DNA of 27,056 nt from a virus. The notes beneath the pieces were generated by a model, which was given only the letters and a program-made list of their open reading frames with translations, was not told where the DNA came from and did no database searches. Position 1 is the first letter of the stretch; every line of letters begins with the position of its first letter. The DNA lies in IMG/VR virus record IMGVR_UViG_3300030107_006291, positions 1 to 27,056 of that record; one strand, written 5' to 3'. Positions 2 through 4,713 of this stretch are shown piece after piece. The position numbers and the translations under genes are program-made.

Positions 2-844
2 CCCTGCCAAGACATCAGCCTGGCAGGAAGCGGAGCCGGTCTGGCTGGGGAGAGGTCCGGCCTTTGGGGGGAAATGTACCGGGTCATTCGCGAGATTCGA
101 CCCCGATTCGTCGTTGTGGAAAACGTCCCAGCTCTTACTTCTCGGGGGCTCGGAACCGTACTTGGAGACTTGGCCTCTTGCGGGTACGATGCGGAATGGG
201 ATTGCATCAGCGCGGCATCCGTCGGGGCGTGCCATCGACGCGATAGGCTCTTTATCATTGCCTACAATACCGACGCCAACAGCGGGAGACGCGAAGAGCA
301 GCGGGAGCCGGAACACGGCAAACAGCAAAGCCAACGCAGGAACGAGCCTGACGGACTGGGCAAAACAGGACGGCGGGAAGGGGCGCATGATGATGCCAAC
401 TCCGACAGCAGCAAAGGGCGGCAACGTATCCAGGGGAGGCAAGCGGAAGAACGAGAAACTTTTAACCGGTGCAGCGAGGGATCTAGCCGCAAAGATGCTG
501 CCGACACCAACAGCGACACAGTACGGAAACAATCAAGGCGGAGCAGCCGGACGGGTAGGCCCAGTTCGTCACAGCCTCGGGAGCCTAGCAAAGAAAGGGA
601 TCTTGCCAACCCCCAGCGCGAGGGACTTCAAGAGCGGGAAGGGGCGCAAGGAGAATGGACATACGCCTCAATTGCCGGAGGTCATGGGGGGAATGCTGAA
701 CCCCGATTTTGTCCAGTCATACCTAATGGGTTTCCCGGACGGGTGGCTAGATTAAAAGCCCTTGGCAATGCCGTTGTGCCTGCGGTTGCTTATCAGGTTG
801 GTAGAGCTCTGCTTCAGAGAATTAACGAGGCCAATTGTACTTGA
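2..844 (+). CDS. C5-cytosine DNA methyltransferase (Dcm-like), 5' partial
   Basis: Transfers a methyl group from S-adenosylmethionine to C5 of cytosine in DNA, probably to mask phage DNA from host restriction. The frame is already open at base 2 and begins with PCQDIS, the motif IV loop with the catalytic Cys at bases 5-7, so the AdoMet-binding N-terminus lies upstream of the window. Next come ENVPAL (motif VI), CHRRDRLFIIAY (motif VIII), then a long hydrophilic variable region with repeated ANS/TNS-type segments where the target recognition domain is expected, and RLKALGNAVVP (motif IX/X region) near the C-terminus. All conserved motifs are in this one frame, which identifies it as the catalytic frame. 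The first internal Met is at base 74, but starting there would remove the catalytic Cys. A second long frame overlaps it. The stop overlaps the convergent endolysin gene by 23 bp. The locus looks more GC-rich than the late operon. Confidence 0.9.
   Translation, partial: PCQDISLAGSGAGLAGERSGLWGEMYRVIREIRPRFVVVENVPALTSRGLGTVLGDLASCGYDAEWDCISAASVGACHRRDRLFIIAYNTDANSGRREEQREPEHGKQQSQRRNEPDGLGKTGRREGAHDDANSDSSKGRQRIQGRQAEERETFNRCSEGSSRKDAADTNSDTVRKQSRRSSRTGRPSSSQPREPSKERDLANPQREGLQEREGAQGEWTYASIAGGHGGNAEPRFCPVIPNGFPGRVARLKALGNAVVPAVAYQVGRALLQRINEANCT
3..755 (+). CDS. Overlapping second frame in the methyltransferase gene: PTPTA-repeat protein (possible dual coding)
   Basis: This frame is offset by one base from the methyltransferase and is open from base 3 to a TAA at 753-755, about 250 codons, with its start upstream of the window. 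It is not random in content. It contains four PTPTA-like units (IPTPTAGDA, MPTPTAAKG, LPTPTATQY, LPTPSARDF) spaced through the middle, a segment reading SLWKTSQLLLL, another reading ETWPLAGTMRNG, and a C-terminus LNPDFVQSYLMGFPDGW. From memory, proteins with exactly this arrangement (TSQ..LLEG, ETWPxSGM.xNG, repeated LPTPTA.D, LNP.FVEWLMGFP.GW) are annotated in many phages, usually next to or within methyltransferase loci. The same DNA therefore reads as two familiar proteins. Whether both are made, or this one is reached by frameshifting or its own start, cannot be decided here. An internal ATG at 114 is possible but would drop the N-terminal part. Confidence 0.45.
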   Translation, partial: PAKTSAWQEAEPVWLGRGPAFGGKCTGSFARFDPDSSLWKTSQLLLLGGSEPYLETWPLAGTMRNGIASARHPSGRAIDAIGSLSLPTIPTPTAGDAKSSGSRNTANSKANAGTSLTDWAKQDGGKGRMMMPTPTAAKGGNVSRGGKRKNEKLLTGAARDLAAKMLPTPTATQYGNNQGGAAGRVGPVRHSLGSLAKKGILPTPSARDFKSGKGRKENGHTPQLPEVMGGMLNPDFVQSYLMGFPDGWLD

Positions 845-1244
845 ACCATCTAGCGGCTCTTGCTTTTTCTGGTGAAGAACCGCGAGTATCGAAGTGAACA
901 AAATTCTCATAAAGACCTAAGCCAAAACCAGTGCCTAACCTACGAGCTGCGTTCTCTAGCTCAATATATAATCTCAGCATATAGGCACCGTGACGCTTAG
1001 TCGCGGCTACATAAGTAACATCAGCGGCGTAGCAAGTACCATCTCGCGGAAGATGCCAGCTCCTTGACGCACCACCTACTGCCTCGTTGTGCTTCTCGCA
1101 GCGATAAGACGAGTTAATCCTTAACGGGCCAAGCTGTTTGCGAACGCTATCGAGAACCGTGACGAGCGACTGGGCGGGATTGGTTTTACTGCAACACGAG
1201 CAGGCAAACTCTGACGCCGAAAAGTATTGGCCAACCCTACCCAT
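822..1244 (-). CDS. Peptidase M15-type endolysin (D-Ala-D-Ala carboxypeptidase-like)
   Basis: A 140-aa protein that probably cleaves peptide bonds in the peptidoglycan stem peptide and serves as the phage endolysin. It has the M15_3-type pattern: an N-terminal FSASEFACSCC segment (residues 8-18), INSSYRC at 43-49, SWHLPRDG at 62-69, AAD at 73-75 and FVHFDTRG at 115-122. His64, Asp75 and His117 are the expected zinc ligands. The His-Asp spacing is longer than the usual H..G.A.D form, so a short loop appears to be inserted there. There is no signal peptide, which fits release through a holin. Its ATG shares one base with the TAA of the upstream Lys-rich gene (TAATG), so it is probably translationally coupled. 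It is the last gene of the late operon, and its 3' end overlaps the convergent methyltransferase gene. Confidence 0.85.
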   Translation of the reverse strand: MGRVGQYFSASEFACSCCSKTNPAQSLVTVLDSVRKQLGPLRINSSYRCEKHNEAVGGASRSWHLPRDGTCYAADVTYVAATKRHGAYMLRLYIELENAARRLGTGFGLGLYENFVHFDTRGSSPEKARAARWFKYNWPR

Positions 1245-1381: not shown

Positions 1382-1572
1382 TACGCTCTCCTTGTTCTTG
1401 GTTTTTTTGATTTAGCTTTTTTTGGCTTGGCTGTCTTTGCCGCTGCTTTAAACGCTGCGTTAGTGGGCGCACCCTTGGCCCCGACTTTCCGCATTGTCTC
1501 GCCTGAGCCTTTTCTTATTCGTTCTCTTTTTGCCTGAATATTCGCGTACAGCCCTTTTCGTTTCTTTGCCAT
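1381..1572 (-). CDS. Lys/Arg-rich 63-aa phage protein
   Basis: A small basic protein starting MAKKRKGLYANIQAKRERI and containing GSGETMRKVGAKGAPT, then a Lys/Ala-rich tail ending RTRRA. Proteins with the pattern YANI.AKR.RI..GSGE.MR..G.KGAPT are, from memory, common short hypotheticals in many phages near lysis and structural genes, with no assigned function. The frame is open upstream to 1608, but I chose the ATG at 1572 because it follows an AAGGAGA Shine-Dalgarno sequence at proper spacing and shares its A with the upstream TAA (TAATG). Its own TAA overlaps the next ATG in the same way. Binding to DNA or RNA is a guess from composition only. Confidence 0.75.
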   Translation of the reverse strand: MAKKRKGLYANIQAKRERIRKGSGETMRKVGAKGAPTNAAFKAAAKTAKPKKAKSKKPRTRRA

Positions 1573-1856
1573 TAGGCTCTCCTTGATTTTGCGCCAGAGC
1601 ACTTCCAACGTTTACGAGATAGATTGTTTGCACTATTTGGGTCGTTTTGTTTTTTCTTAGATAATCGTTTCTTAATTCCTAGACTACGAGCACAGTAGCT
1701 ATCGCCCTTAGACGTACCTGGCTTGACACGAGGACCGCCCTTTTTTGCGCTGCCTGACTGCCCGTAACAAGTTTTTTTTGTTCGACCCGTCTTAGGGTTT
1801 TTAAACGTTTTGCATTTGGCTTTACCCCTGGGTTTGGTCTTTTTTGCTTTTGCCAT
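1572..1856 (-). CDS. Lys-rich, four-cysteine 94-aa phage protein
   Basis: A basic 94-aa protein. The first half is Lys-rich (MAKAKKTKPRGKAKC). The second half carries KPGTSKGDSYCARSLGIKK and QNDPNSANNLSRKRWKCSG, a pattern I remember from short hypothetical proteins of aquatic phages. Four cysteines (15, 30, 55, 86) could bind a metal, but the spacing does not match a zinc finger I can name. Function unknown. Two in-frame GTG codons lie just upstream, but the ATG at 1856 sits 4-5 bases after GAGGTG and shares a base with the upstream TGA (TGATG), so it is the preferred start. The last codons, reading KSRRA, contain the AAGGAGA Shine-Dalgarno sequence of the next gene. Confidence 0.75.
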   Translation of the reverse strand: MAKAKKTKPRGKAKCKTFKNPKTGRTKKTCYGQSGSAKKGGPRVKPGTSKGDSYCARSLGIKKRLSKKKQNDPNSANNLSRKRWKCSGAKSRRA

Positions 1857-2074
1857 CACCACCTCATTTTCAGACCTGCCGCTGCGGTCCAGTCGCCGGA
1901 ATTGGCGAACTCTCCAGAAGCAAACGCAAATACATCGTGTCCTAACTTGACATCCAAACTGCCAACAGCCCGGGCACCATCAGGCCCAACAGTAGCACCA
2001 AGCAGAAGGTCAACCGTGTCTTTCGGAAGCGCCGATGCTTTCGCCAAACCTCCCGCAACAGCACCGGCTACTCC
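1856..2074 (-). CDS. Downstream frame probably expressed as a -1 frameshift extension of the holin-like protein
   Basis: A 72-codon frame with no ATG or GTG start. It begins GVAGAVAGGLAKASALPKDT, continues with LLLGATVGPDGARAVGSLDVK and ends in GEFANSGDWTAAAGLKMRW. The C-terminal pattern, ending in an aromatic after W.A.AGL, resembles short phage proteins I have seen, but I cannot name it. The only start-like codon is a TTG at 2047 with GGAGGT directly against it, a poor initiation context about 20 bases beyond the upstream stop. In contrast, a -1 slip on A AAA AAG at 2080-2074 brings ribosomes from the holin-like gene exactly into this frame, giving a 146-aa fusion (2295 to 1856). Its TGA shares a base with the next ATG (TGATG). 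That the frame is coding is likely; the mode of expression is inferred. Confidence 0.65.
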   Translation of the reverse strand, partial: GVAGAVAGGLAKASALPKDTVDLLLGATVGPDGARAVGSLDVKLGHDVFAFASGEFANSGDWTAAAGLKMRW

Positions 2075-2080
2075 TTTTTT
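2031..2080 (-). promoter_or_regulatory. Candidate -1 programmed ribosomal frameshift signal
   Basis: On the minus strand the last codons of the holin-like gene are GCA AAA AAG GAG TAG, containing the heptamer A AAA AAG (2080-2074) in the correct phase (X XXY YYZ). This is the slippery sequence of E. coli dnaX. After a 5-nt spacer (GAGTA) comes a 9-bp stem, GCCGGTGCT (2068-2060) with AGCATCGGC (2039-2031). It includes one G-U pair, and the loop is 20 nt. Slippage before the TAG enters the 72-codon frame downstream. An SD-like stimulator upstream is weak (AGG about 8 nt before the heptamer). Efficiency cannot be judged from sequence. Confidence 0.65.
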
Positions 2081-2295
2081 GCTAGATGCCTAGCTGCTTC
2101 TACTTGAGCTGCACCAATGGCTTCTTTCCCTTTAACCATGCTGCGTCCCATGGTGTAGCTTGAGCCACATACTGCCGCTAGAATGCCACCAATAATCTGT
2201 GTCCACTGGTTGCCTTCAACAGATGCAAGAATGCATCCGCCAATCATGCCAACCAATGTGATAATCATTTCACTTGTTTTAATTCCTGGTTTCAT
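2068..2295 (-). CDS. Holin-like small membrane protein
   Basis: A 75-aa protein with two hydrophobic stretches: residues about 10-26 (IITLVGMIGGCILAS) and about 33-48 (IIGGILAAVCGSSYTMG). A short loop separates them and a charged C-terminal tail follows. This is the layout of class II holins, which open the inner membrane for the endolysin at the end of infection. Its position between a coiled-coil membrane protein and the endolysin end of the operon supports a lysis role. The start ATG overlaps the upstream stop as ATGA. The 3' end is unusual: A AAA AAG lies two codons before the TAG, followed by a stem-loop, so a fraction of ribosomes may add 72 residues. Other possibilities are an antiholin or a pore-forming accessory protein. 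Confidence 0.65.
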   Translation of the reverse strand: MKPGIKTSEMIITLVGMIGGCILASVEGNQWTQIIGGILAAVCGSSYTMGRSMVKGKEAIGAAQVEAARHLAKKE

Positions 2296-2579
2296 TTCGA
2301 CATCTCCCGTCTCATCTCTTCTCGTGTTTCCTGCCTAGTTAGAAAGATTCTAAACTCTTCTCGAAACTCACAAAGGTCACGATGCGTTTTAACTAACTTG
2401 TCGTTAATTTGAGTAATCTCTTCCTGAAGTTCACCCACTTTGTTTTCCAGAATCGTTATTCGAGAGTATGTTGACCCACCGTTATTTTTTTCTTTGTGCG
2501 TTTTAATAGCCGCTGCAACTCCCCAGATGGCAGCGATAAGACCTGCTGTTCCCCCCGACTGGATGAGTGCATCTTCCAT
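2292..2579 (-). CDS. Small membrane protein with coiled coil (spanin- or holin-like)
   Basis: A protein of about 95 aa with one N-terminal hydrophobic segment (AGLIAAIWGVAAAI, about residues 12-25), a short basic linker, then a long heptad-like helix (ITILENKVGELQEEI onward) rich in Glu, Lys and Arg. The build is that of an inner-membrane lysis accessory such as an i-spanin, or of an XhlA-like holin partner. The sequence alone does not decide between them. The frame extends upstream to a TTG at 2597 inside the fibre gene. I prefer the ATG at 2579, one base after the fibre stop, though the SD is weak (GAGGG about 12 bases upstream). It ends in ATGA, overlapping the holin-like start, so the two are probably co-translated. 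Confidence 0.6.
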   Translation of the reverse strand: MEDALIQSGGTAGLIAAIWGVAAAIKTHKEKNNGGSTYSRITILENKVGELQEEITQINDKLVKTHRDLCEFREEFRIFLTRQETREEMRREMSK

Positions 2580-2580
2580 C

Positions 2581-4713
2581 TCAGTCACCACCCTCAAGCT
2601 GCTCGATGCGAGCAGTAAGCTCCTGGACGGCTTTGATTAATGGAGCCACCAACAAAGAATATTGTATCCCCATCTTGCCGCTAGAGTTTTCCTTGATTCC
2701 GTTAAACTCTACACCCAGGGTCTCACAAGCTGCTTTGACTTCTTGAGCAATTAGCCCGTCTGAGCGGGTTGTGCTGTCAAATTCTTCTTTGATTGGCTGC
2801 CCCGTTTCAACGTCAAAAGTAGCAGTGGAAACTATAAATTCTTCCGTTCCTGTAACATTCCCATCTTCGTCAAGAATATCCCGCGTTTGAGTCTGGCCTT
2901 TTTTATACCGGTTGTCTCTAATTTCTTCCGGCCAATCGGCTGGATGAACCCTCGAAAAACTTACTGGACGAAGCGCATTGATAAATTCCAAGCCAAGGCT
3001 TAAGTCCTGTACGTTAGTTTTAACTCTTGCGTCCGACGTAGCGGTAAGAGCTACTTGGCCGTCAATATCACCGATAGAAGTGTTACCAAGTCTGACTTGA
3101 TTTTGTGAGTCCGTGACCGCCCCATAACCAATAGCAATTTGGTTGTCCCCGTCAGCGTCGGTTGTATCTGCCGTTGACCCCAGAAATACGCACTGGTTTC
3201 CATCATCAAGTCCTAAACCAGACTGATACCCAATCGCGGTGTTATGTTCAGTCGTTGCAGTTAAGGCTGTTAAGGCTTGATATCCTACTACCGTAGCCTT
3301 GCTCGAAGAAGTTGCATCAAGTGCTTCTTTTCCAATTCCTACCGAATCAGAGCCAGTAAACGCGCTCATTGCATCTCTGCCGATTGCCACATTATTGGTC
3401 CCTGAGCAGGTTGCAGAAAATGCGCCTTTTCCGATGGCGGTATTGTGTGCCCCTGTCGCAGCGTCCCCGGTATTGTGGCCGATATAAACACAATCGTTGC
3501 CCGATTTTCTTCCGCTGTTTGTTCCGATTGCGACTGAGTTTTGAGTTGAAGCGGCATCATCGAGTGCGTAAGTACCGATAGCAACATTGCGCTGCGCGTT
3601 CGTCATGTCTAGACCAGAACCAAAGCCAATCACCACATTGTTGGCCGCGCTCGAAAGCGCCCAGCTACCGGAGCCTCTTTGCGCAATAATGGTGTTTAAA
3701 ACACCGTCTTCTTCAATCGCATCAAGAAGACCCGCGTCCCCGATGGCAATGTTTCCCGATGAGCTAGTGACGCCAGACGATGAGCTTAGAGTCAAAACCC
3801 CGGTAGCGTTTACAGCCATGACCGATTTGCTGTCTCCCGTCTTTACTGCAAAGAGTTCGCCGCCGTCACGTTTGCAGGCTACGCCGGTTGAGCTAGTGTT
3901 GATGGCGTCTTCAAGAATTAGCTCGGTGTCGCTGTTAATTGTAGTGACCGTGGTAGTTACGGTTCCAACTTTAATCGCTGCACCGACGTGAAAGTCAGTA
4001 GTGAACGCAGTATTTACACCCGTCAGCGTAGTGCTTGATCCGCTAGTGCTTACCGATGCAGTGCCACCGTTATTGGTCAGTTCTGTACCTAGGTGGCCAA
4101 CCGTCTCAACTTCGGCTGTTGCAGAGCAAGTGCCGAAACCAACATTGCCTGATCCGCTGGCAATGCATTGTCTGACCGCATTTCCCGCTTGAACCCTATA
4201 ATCAACGTTGCTGTTCACTGTTGTGTTTGCGCCTGATGCTTCAATGGTAAGCACCCCGGCATCGCGCTGAAAAGATGCCTGAGCGGCCACACTGTCATTT
4301 CTCACATGCAGCGATTTAGGGCTTGTGATATCATCTATATCTGTTCCAATCATAACCGCTGTCGGACCTATGGCCATTCTTTCAGTGCCAGCAGTTTTAA
4401 AGGAAATGGTGTTAGCGGTTTTAAGGCGCATCTGAGTGTCAGTGTCGTCAATGAAGCCCATTTCGTTACAAATCTGAAGCTCTGGCAGAGAGCCGTCAAT
4501 CTCGCGAATAATTAACCCAGCGTTTTTAATTTCGCCGCCATCACCCGCACCGACCCCCAGCTCTAGCTGCTCGGCGTTGTCGGTGGTCGTGATTTTCATA
4601 AACTGCTCGCCCGCAGTGTCCTGAATTACGAGAGCCGTAGCGTTGTTATCTGGGATAACTGTGGTGCCTGCGCTGATTTGCTGACCGTAATTAATAATTT
4701 TTGCATCTGCCAT
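2581..4713 (-). CDS. Tail fibre/appendage protein with YadA-like repeats and C-terminal S74 intramolecular chaperone
   Basis: A 710-aa structural protein, probably a trimeric receptor-binding fibre. The middle has a beta-rich module around residues 215-285. Residues about 359-545 are a run of YadA/collagen-head-like repeats with recurring NVAIG, NTAIG and SVGIG steps about 13-30 residues apart. From residue 560 the sequence is a peptidase S74 / intramolecular chaperone domain of about 150 aa: SDARVK with Ser560 and Lys565 as the expected self-cleavage pair, LRPVSF, GLIAQEV and a C-terminal helix. In characterised phages this domain assists trimer folding and then cuts itself off. The ATG follows a clear AGGAG Shine-Dalgarno sequence. 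It is the first gene before the lysis cassette, as is common for fibre genes. Confidence 0.85.
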   Translation of the reverse strand: MADAKIINYGQQISAGTTVIPDNNATALVIQDTAGEQFMKITTTDNAEQLELGVGAGDGGEIKNAGLIIREIDGSLPELQICNEMGFIDDTDTQMRLKTANTISFKTAGTERMAIGPTAVMIGTDIDDITSPKSLHVRNDSVAAQASFQRDAGVLTIEASGANTTVNSNVDYRVQAGNAVRQCIASGSGNVGFGTCSATAEVETVGHLGTELTNNGGTASVSTSGSSTTLTGVNTAFTTDFHVGAAIKVGTVTTTVTTINSDTELILEDAINTSSTGVACKRDGGELFAVKTGDSKSVMAVNATGVLTLSSSSGVTSSSGNIAIGDAGLLDAIEEDGVLNTIIAQRGSGSWALSSAANNVVIGFGSGLDMTNAQRNVAIGTYALDDAASTQNSVAIGTNSGRKSGNDCVYIGHNTGDAATGAHNTAIGKGAFSATCSGTNNVAIGRDAMSAFTGSDSVGIGKEALDATSSSKATVVGYQALTALTATTEHNTAIGYQSGLGLDDGNQCVFLGSTADTTDADGDNQIAIGYGAVTDSQNQVRLGNTSIGDIDGQVALTATSDARVKTNVQDLSLGLEFINALRPVSFSRVHPADWPEEIRDNRYKKGQTQTRDILDEDGNVTGTEEFIVSTATFDVETGQPIKEEFDSTTRSDGLIAQEVKAACETLGVEFNGIKENSSGKMGIQYSLLVAPLIKAVQELTARIEQLEGGD

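Follow-up and report, generated by a model that had tools for sequence, protein, structure and literature searches.

Conserved -1 frameshifting as the probable source of two products, one with a predicted outer-membrane-anchor-like extension, from a lysis-module gene of uncultured phages

The locus and its neighbourhood

The window (the whole 27-kb stretch of DNA analysed) is an IMG/VR virus record that carries terminase-, portal-, capsid- and tail-like genes on its minus strand, as judged from their translations. On that strand, ORF A (2068..2295; 75 aa; ATG at 2295, stop TAG at 2070-2068) combines a hydrophobic segment (residues ~10-26) with a Gly/Ala-rich one (~31-49) and a basic helical tail ending in LAKK-E. 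Its 3' end reads GCA AAA AAG GAG TAG and holds, in phase with ORF A, the slippery heptamer A_AAA_AAG (2074..2080, minus strand), followed on the same strand by a 5-nt spacer (GAGTA, 2069..2073) and a putative stimulatory stem-loop (2031..2068) with an inner helix and two arms (2068-2060 and 2039-2031) that pair over 9 bp, one of them G-U. The -1 frame stays open as extension B (1856..2074, minus strand; 72 aa plus stop at 1858-1856) up to a C-terminus reading GLKMRW, and a -1 shift is predicted to yield a 146-aa product, A-B. A preliminary description made from the letters of this DNA had given the same positions, phase, spacer, 9-bp stem and 72 open codons, all of which we could reproduce. 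It had further held that the -1 frame lacks an ATG and has a TTG as its only candidate start. While the former is wrong, with an ATG at codon 70 (too late to matter), the latter stands for early starts, of which the TTG at 2047 is the only one and directly abuts GGGAGGT.

Upstream, ORF A is joined through an ATGA overlap by the gene for a 101-aa protein (2292..2597, minus strand) in which an N-terminal hydrophobic segment precedes a coiled coil, and which weak matches mark as a candidate BhlA-like holin or spanin-like protein. The same gene overlaps the 3' end of a tail-fibre gene, and its coiled-coil membrane protein is a candidate partner of A or A-B. Downstream, the start of a gene for a small basic protein (93-96 aa; 1572..1862, minus strand) overlaps the B stop and lies outside the frameshift, and an endolysin gene follows (822..1244, minus strand; 140 aa) whose product is assigned to Peptidase_M15_3 (PF08291, E 1e-14; phrog_894, E 3e-27). 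In many related loci, a protein of the 101-aa type (one hydrophobic segment plus coiled coil) is encoded upstream of A and is itself preceded by a tail fibre, and in many the endolysin begins 0-110 nt from the B stop. The endolysins after B are of two unrelated types, Peptidase_M15_3 or a 188-197 aa protein that matches phrog_3000 and the endolysin family phrog_33083. Going by this neighbourhood, the A/B gene very likely belongs to a lysis module.

Several further features of the region may be recorded here. Three very small Lys/Arg-rich ORFs (45, 75 and ~93 aa) follow one another at positions 1244-1862 of the minus strand, separating B from the endolysin, and basic ORFs resembling them are found again close to A-B in relatives (L049, L051 and L061 among others). 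The 188-197 aa family (phrog_3000/33083; L055:685-1248, L038:2302-2892 and similar ones), which replaces the M15 enzyme directly after B, often starts with MLPPxLxxxKxxGxxVF. Convergent to the lysis genes, the C-terminal part of a DNA cytosine methyltransferase-like ORF (74-844, plus strand; from its translation only) lies at the contig edge.

Frame relation and slip site among relatives

Relatives were gathered by scanning IMG/VR with A, B, an alignment of A and clade alignments of B, which gave ~50 contigs with ~45 distinct relatives; 47 A genes were examined for the heptamer and 45 B sequences were available. When isolate phage records were queried by tblastn, neither A and B from different clades nor the major capsid protein found a relative at the sensitivity used, which leaves no cultured relative to compare, and a scan of genome contigs did not find one either. 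The A/B genes belong to a large family of uncultured phages.

In every relative having both parts, B lies in frame -1 of A and never in frame +1. This includes loci found through B alone (L092, L113, L115, L120, L126, L127), where A (partial in L113) is present upstream with an in-phase heptamer, so that the relation is not an artefact of searching with A. In its -1 frame, B evolves under purifying selection (dN/dS 0.07-0.65; 14 pairs), and a homologue with A and B fused in a single frame, which the preliminary description had proposed to look for, was not found among the relatives. A one-base sequencing or assembly error in the A-run, against which the same description had cautioned and which a metagenome contig with a homopolymer at the site might well suffer, can be dismissed with near certainty, since the same frame relation occurs in more than 40 contigs, including GGGAAAG ones that have no long homopolymer. 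Transcriptional slippage as a general cause was rejected as well: six A's are a short run, and GGGAAAG is without a long one.

All 47 A genes carry an in-phase slippery heptamer within their last ~10 codons, as against 7 of 2,979 in-phase positions (0.23%) elsewhere in the same genes and only 4/47 out-of-phase heptamers near the A end for each of the other phases. The tally is A_AAA_AAG (22), G_GGA_AAG (20), A_AAA_AAA (3), A_AAA_AAC (1) and C_CCA_AAG (1), and A_AAA_AAG, G_GGA_AAG and C_CCA_AAG rank among the most shift-prone heptamers in E. coli (review, PMC5009743). Rather than being lost in close relatives, a scenario raised in the preliminary description, the heptamer is swapped only for other slippery heptamers, with at least nine such exchanges required on an A tree that was built without the slip codons from few columns and leaves many forks unresolved.

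Selection on the slip codons themselves can be seen in their lack of synonymous change. In the window's group (n=13), exactly three of the 55 codon columns scored are free from synonymous variation (mean across all columns, 0.55) and these three are the heptamer codons (GCA/GTA AAA AAG). In the G_GGA_AAG group (n=20), GGA and AAG are invariant, the preceding codon always ends in G, and just one more of the scored columns is invariant, the GAG codon within GCGGAGGC, which is an internal Shine-Dalgarno sequence 13 nt before the heptamer. Zero synonymous variation at this GAG is found in two clades, and the third of the groups (n=9; A_AAA_AAG, MIQG starts) keeps both the internal Shine-Dalgarno sequence and the heptamer. 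Hence, the expectation that heptamer, stem and frame relation be kept while synonymous sites vary is borne out, for the stem within the window's clade only.

These observations bear on whether B could be a gene in its own right that overlaps A and is translated through reinitiation or a weak start of its own (TTG, GTG or ATG), with the heptamer being incidental. Such a gene might use the TTG directly after GGGAGGT in the window or the in-frame ATGs near the A stop in L046/L047 (TAATG), L058, L063 and L066. However, the start codon for B is conserved in neither place nor kind, with 5/47 having none in the first 75 nt and 9/47 only a TTG; moreover, a separate gene would not account for a frame that is always -1, for a heptamer kept or exchanged in 47/47 or for slip codons devoid of synonymous variation. 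We therefore regard it as very improbable. The few relatives with an ATG near the A stop may permit both frameshifting and reinitiation, and among them there is no convincing case of a normal ATG with a Shine-Dalgarno sequence for B. With B having no start codon to go by, annotation would miss A-B.

Programmed -1 frameshifting that yields A and A-B is thus strongly supported by the comparison and, as far as sequences can tell, almost certain; the conservation of heptamer and frame across relatives also favours the earlier proposal that two products (75 aa and 146 aa) come from one gene. For the core claim as a whole, namely conserved -1 frameshifting that gives A and A-B in a lysis module, we would put the probability at about 85%.

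What stimulates the shift appears to depend on the clade. The downstream stem is unusually stable only in the window's clade (window, L030-L032, L035, L042, L043; z about -1.9 to -3.6), whereas z for downstream structure averages 0.0 in the G_GGA_AAG group; this indicates that the clades have retained the shift but not one common stimulator. The internal Shine-Dalgarno sequence (GGAGG) lies 13 nt upstream of the heptamer in GGGAAAG members and in the MIQG clade, and a clear stimulator was not found in L036-L041, L038/L039 and L044-L047. Eight relatives retain a stem of the window's type with one-sided substitutions (G-U/A-U, C-G/U-G), and a search for two-sided compensatory covariation found none, so that covariation is consistent with the stem yet counts as weak evidence. 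Stimulators and heptamers that are exchanged while recoding persists amount to a natural experiment in the evolution of frameshift sites. Two well-known sites invite comparison. E. coli dnaX (tau/gamma) shares the heptamer A_AAA_AAG, the downstream stem-loop (window's clade) and an internal Shine-Dalgarno sequence upstream (other clades), but is unrelated in gene and function and has a shift that shortens the product rather than lengthening it; in the A-B family, the stimulator changes from one clade to another. Phage lambda gpG/gpGT resembles part of the A-B family in using G_GGA_AAG, and it resembles A-B in pairing a short major product with a minor, C-terminally extended one and in being conserved across divergent phages; the gene here, however, is for a membrane protein beside an endolysin and not for a tail chaperone.

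The slip site may also have served as a junction for modular exchange. Because the L019/L068 contig shares 88% of B but only 46% of A with the window while keeping the -1 relation, A and B have, by this measure of identity, evidently recombined at or near the slip site with their frame relation intact.

Predicted folds of A and B

A and B were folded apart, B by AlphaFold on 45 sequences. The B model consists of a helix (2-14) and four strands (21-30, 33-43, 48-57, 61-70) with a pLDDT of 82 and a pTM of 0.59, and its best PDB matches in Foldseek are the YadA membrane anchor 2LME (best E 0.066), then Hia (3EMO, 2GR7), with 2GR8 and AtaA ranking close behind. Among the named viral structures, phage adhesins that have YadA-like anchors match best (best E 0.0044); although these E-values are modest, the same fold recurs in two libraries. 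By profile, PHROG 17426 ('adhesin') matches six B members (best E 0.0005) and Pfam Phage_OMP matches three weakly (E 0.047), while a search of B against PDB sequences gave chance matches only (MyD88). Pfam YadA_anchor matches none of the 45 B members at E <= 1, so the likeness we draw between B and the anchor is one of fold. The C-terminal residue is Trp or Phe in 45/45 members, Gly occupies position -6 in 45/45, and hydrophobic and polar residues alternate along the last strand, a combination we take to be the pattern of the BAM beta-signal. On the strength of these models, B probably forms a helix followed by a beta meander of four strands, as in the membrane anchors of trimeric autotransporters, where three chains make up a 12-strand trimer, and it probably ends in a beta-signal. 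It would share with those of YadA, Hia and AtaA a helix followed by four antiparallel strands and a terminal aromatic residue, but differs in that A-B has neither a passenger domain nor a match to YadA_anchor and is preceded by an inner-membrane-type segment of a phage protein.

For A, two helices are predicted, the first of them hydrophobic and the second weakly so (hydrophobicity sums of -2.0 to +1.1 for the first segment vs +3.7 to +10.4 for the second). Class II holins and pinholins (lambda S, S21) are similar in that A is short, has two hydrophobic segments and a basic C-terminus, and adjoins an endolysin; what sets A apart is the weakness of its second segment, the lack of a significant family match and an extension by frameshift instead of the known dual starts. 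Holin PHROGs match one or two A members at E >= 0.14 and none does so significantly. The label 'holin-like' given to A earlier is plausible, then, but it has neither a significant holin match nor a strong second segment behind it. Of the arrangements that the preliminary description had considered, the best fit is a holin tethered to another domain, that domain being the outer-membrane-anchor-like fold of B, which had gone unrecognised there.

How A sits in the membrane matters for where B would end up. The positive-inside rule suggests an N-in/C-in topology for A, which would leave B in the cytosol. Since the second segment is marginal for insertion, export of the remainder is still conceivable: A may equally be a signal anchor with everything beyond it exported, or holin lesions, once open, may let B into the periplasm. 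No lipobox ORF turned up in any frame of the 27-kb window, which as a fragment may be incomplete, so that a spanin of the known o- or u-types was not recognised there. IGGC in the window's A was considered as a lipobox and rejected, as its Cys is not conserved. Among the A proteins of relatives, only that of L041 (2501-2746) carries a proper lipobox (LVSGC), so that in this one lineage A may occur as a lipoprotein.

Possible roles in lysis

A scenario for how the two products might be made and used can be envisaged as follows. Most ribosomes would stop at the TAG to give A, and a fraction would slip in tandem by -1 on A_AAA_AAG (in relatives on G_GGA_AAG, C_CCA_AAG, A_AAA_AAC or A_AAA_AAA) to give A-B, helped by the downstream stem in the window's clade or by the internal Shine-Dalgarno sequence 13 nt upstream in other clades. 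A and the membrane protein encoded next to it would act together in the inner membrane; the minor A-B form would trimerise, place B in the outer membrane and, after the endolysin has removed the wall, link both membranes in a spanin-like manner. The fixed ratio of A to A-B would set how much of the inner-membrane protein carries the link. That A-B is a spanin-like lysis protein linking inner and outer membranes is a tentative reading with the odds somewhat against it. With odds distinctly against it, we would add the possibility of a third kind of spanin, in which one gene, via -1 frameshifting, gives a holin-like inner-membrane protein plus a minor form with a trimeric beta-barrel anchor, in fixed ratio and without a lipoprotein. 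Like Rz/Rz1 and the u-spanin gp11 of T1 (PMC6139136), A-B would belong to a lysis module and connect the two membranes; it differs from them in having no lipoprotein signal, the outer-membrane link being instead a beta-barrel anchor added by the frameshift. Against such a link speaks its length, as the ~70 residues from the first hydrophobic segment to the barrel correspond to ~10 nm of helix, which is shorter than a normal periplasm.

The frameshift may be real and yet serve another purpose. A-B could be a regulator on the cytosolic side whose altered C-terminus delays or tunes holin triggering in an antiholin-like way, a role consistent with the charge distribution of A (which favours C-in), with its place in the lysis module and with holin/antiholin pairs known to arise from one gene by dual starts (SPP1 24.1/24.1* and 26/26*; PMC6316719). 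A cytosolic regulator would, however, have no need for an amphipathic four-strand fold or for the Gly at -6 and the terminal aromatic residue of 45/45 members, and we consider this role unlikely. It is also conceivable that A-B is a surface or virion protein (adhesin-like or for superinfection exclusion) unrelated to lysis, whose gene lies between tail fibre and endolysin by chance. The nearest viral folds are indeed annotated as phage adhesins or YadA-like proteins, the tail-fibre gene is just upstream, and in phiEco32 the YadA-like gene is located far from the lysis genes and not within a lysis module. Yet an endolysin, of either unrelated type, begins 0-110 nt from the B stop in many loci and A has no passenger domain, so a surface role seems quite unlikely to us.

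Should A-B be the spanin-like link, its significance would lie in phages for which no such protein has been recognised. A spanin survey could recognise no spanin in roughly 13% of its phages, many of them marine, and how the outer membrane is broken there is an open question; the review had only raised the possibility that 'an OMP could act as an o-spanin' (PMC6139136). The A-B family is a concrete candidate for outer-membrane disruption in phages without spanins and, if true, would represent a novel means by which phages breach the outer membrane of bacteria. As for recoding, the conserved frameshifts described in tailed phages are chiefly those of tail chaperones and of capsid or tail proteins, the frameshift at the MS2 lysis gene is a different, RNA-phage mechanism, and SPP1 holins are dual-start products (PMC6316719). 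PRFect names 'lysins' among gene types with known frameshifts but not the A-B architecture. In the open-access literature, to which the search extended, we found no DNA phage reported to frameshift a holin-like gene of its lysis module, and we regard the novelty of a frameshifted lysis-module gene as provisional. Finally, lysis neighbourhoods of some relatives (L055:1949-2614; also L057, L061, L065 and L067) hold a gene that matches PHROG 3704 'ferredoxin' (host takeover; E 3e-56) and whose product starts with SFLVANLPLEPVxVRKEFLY.
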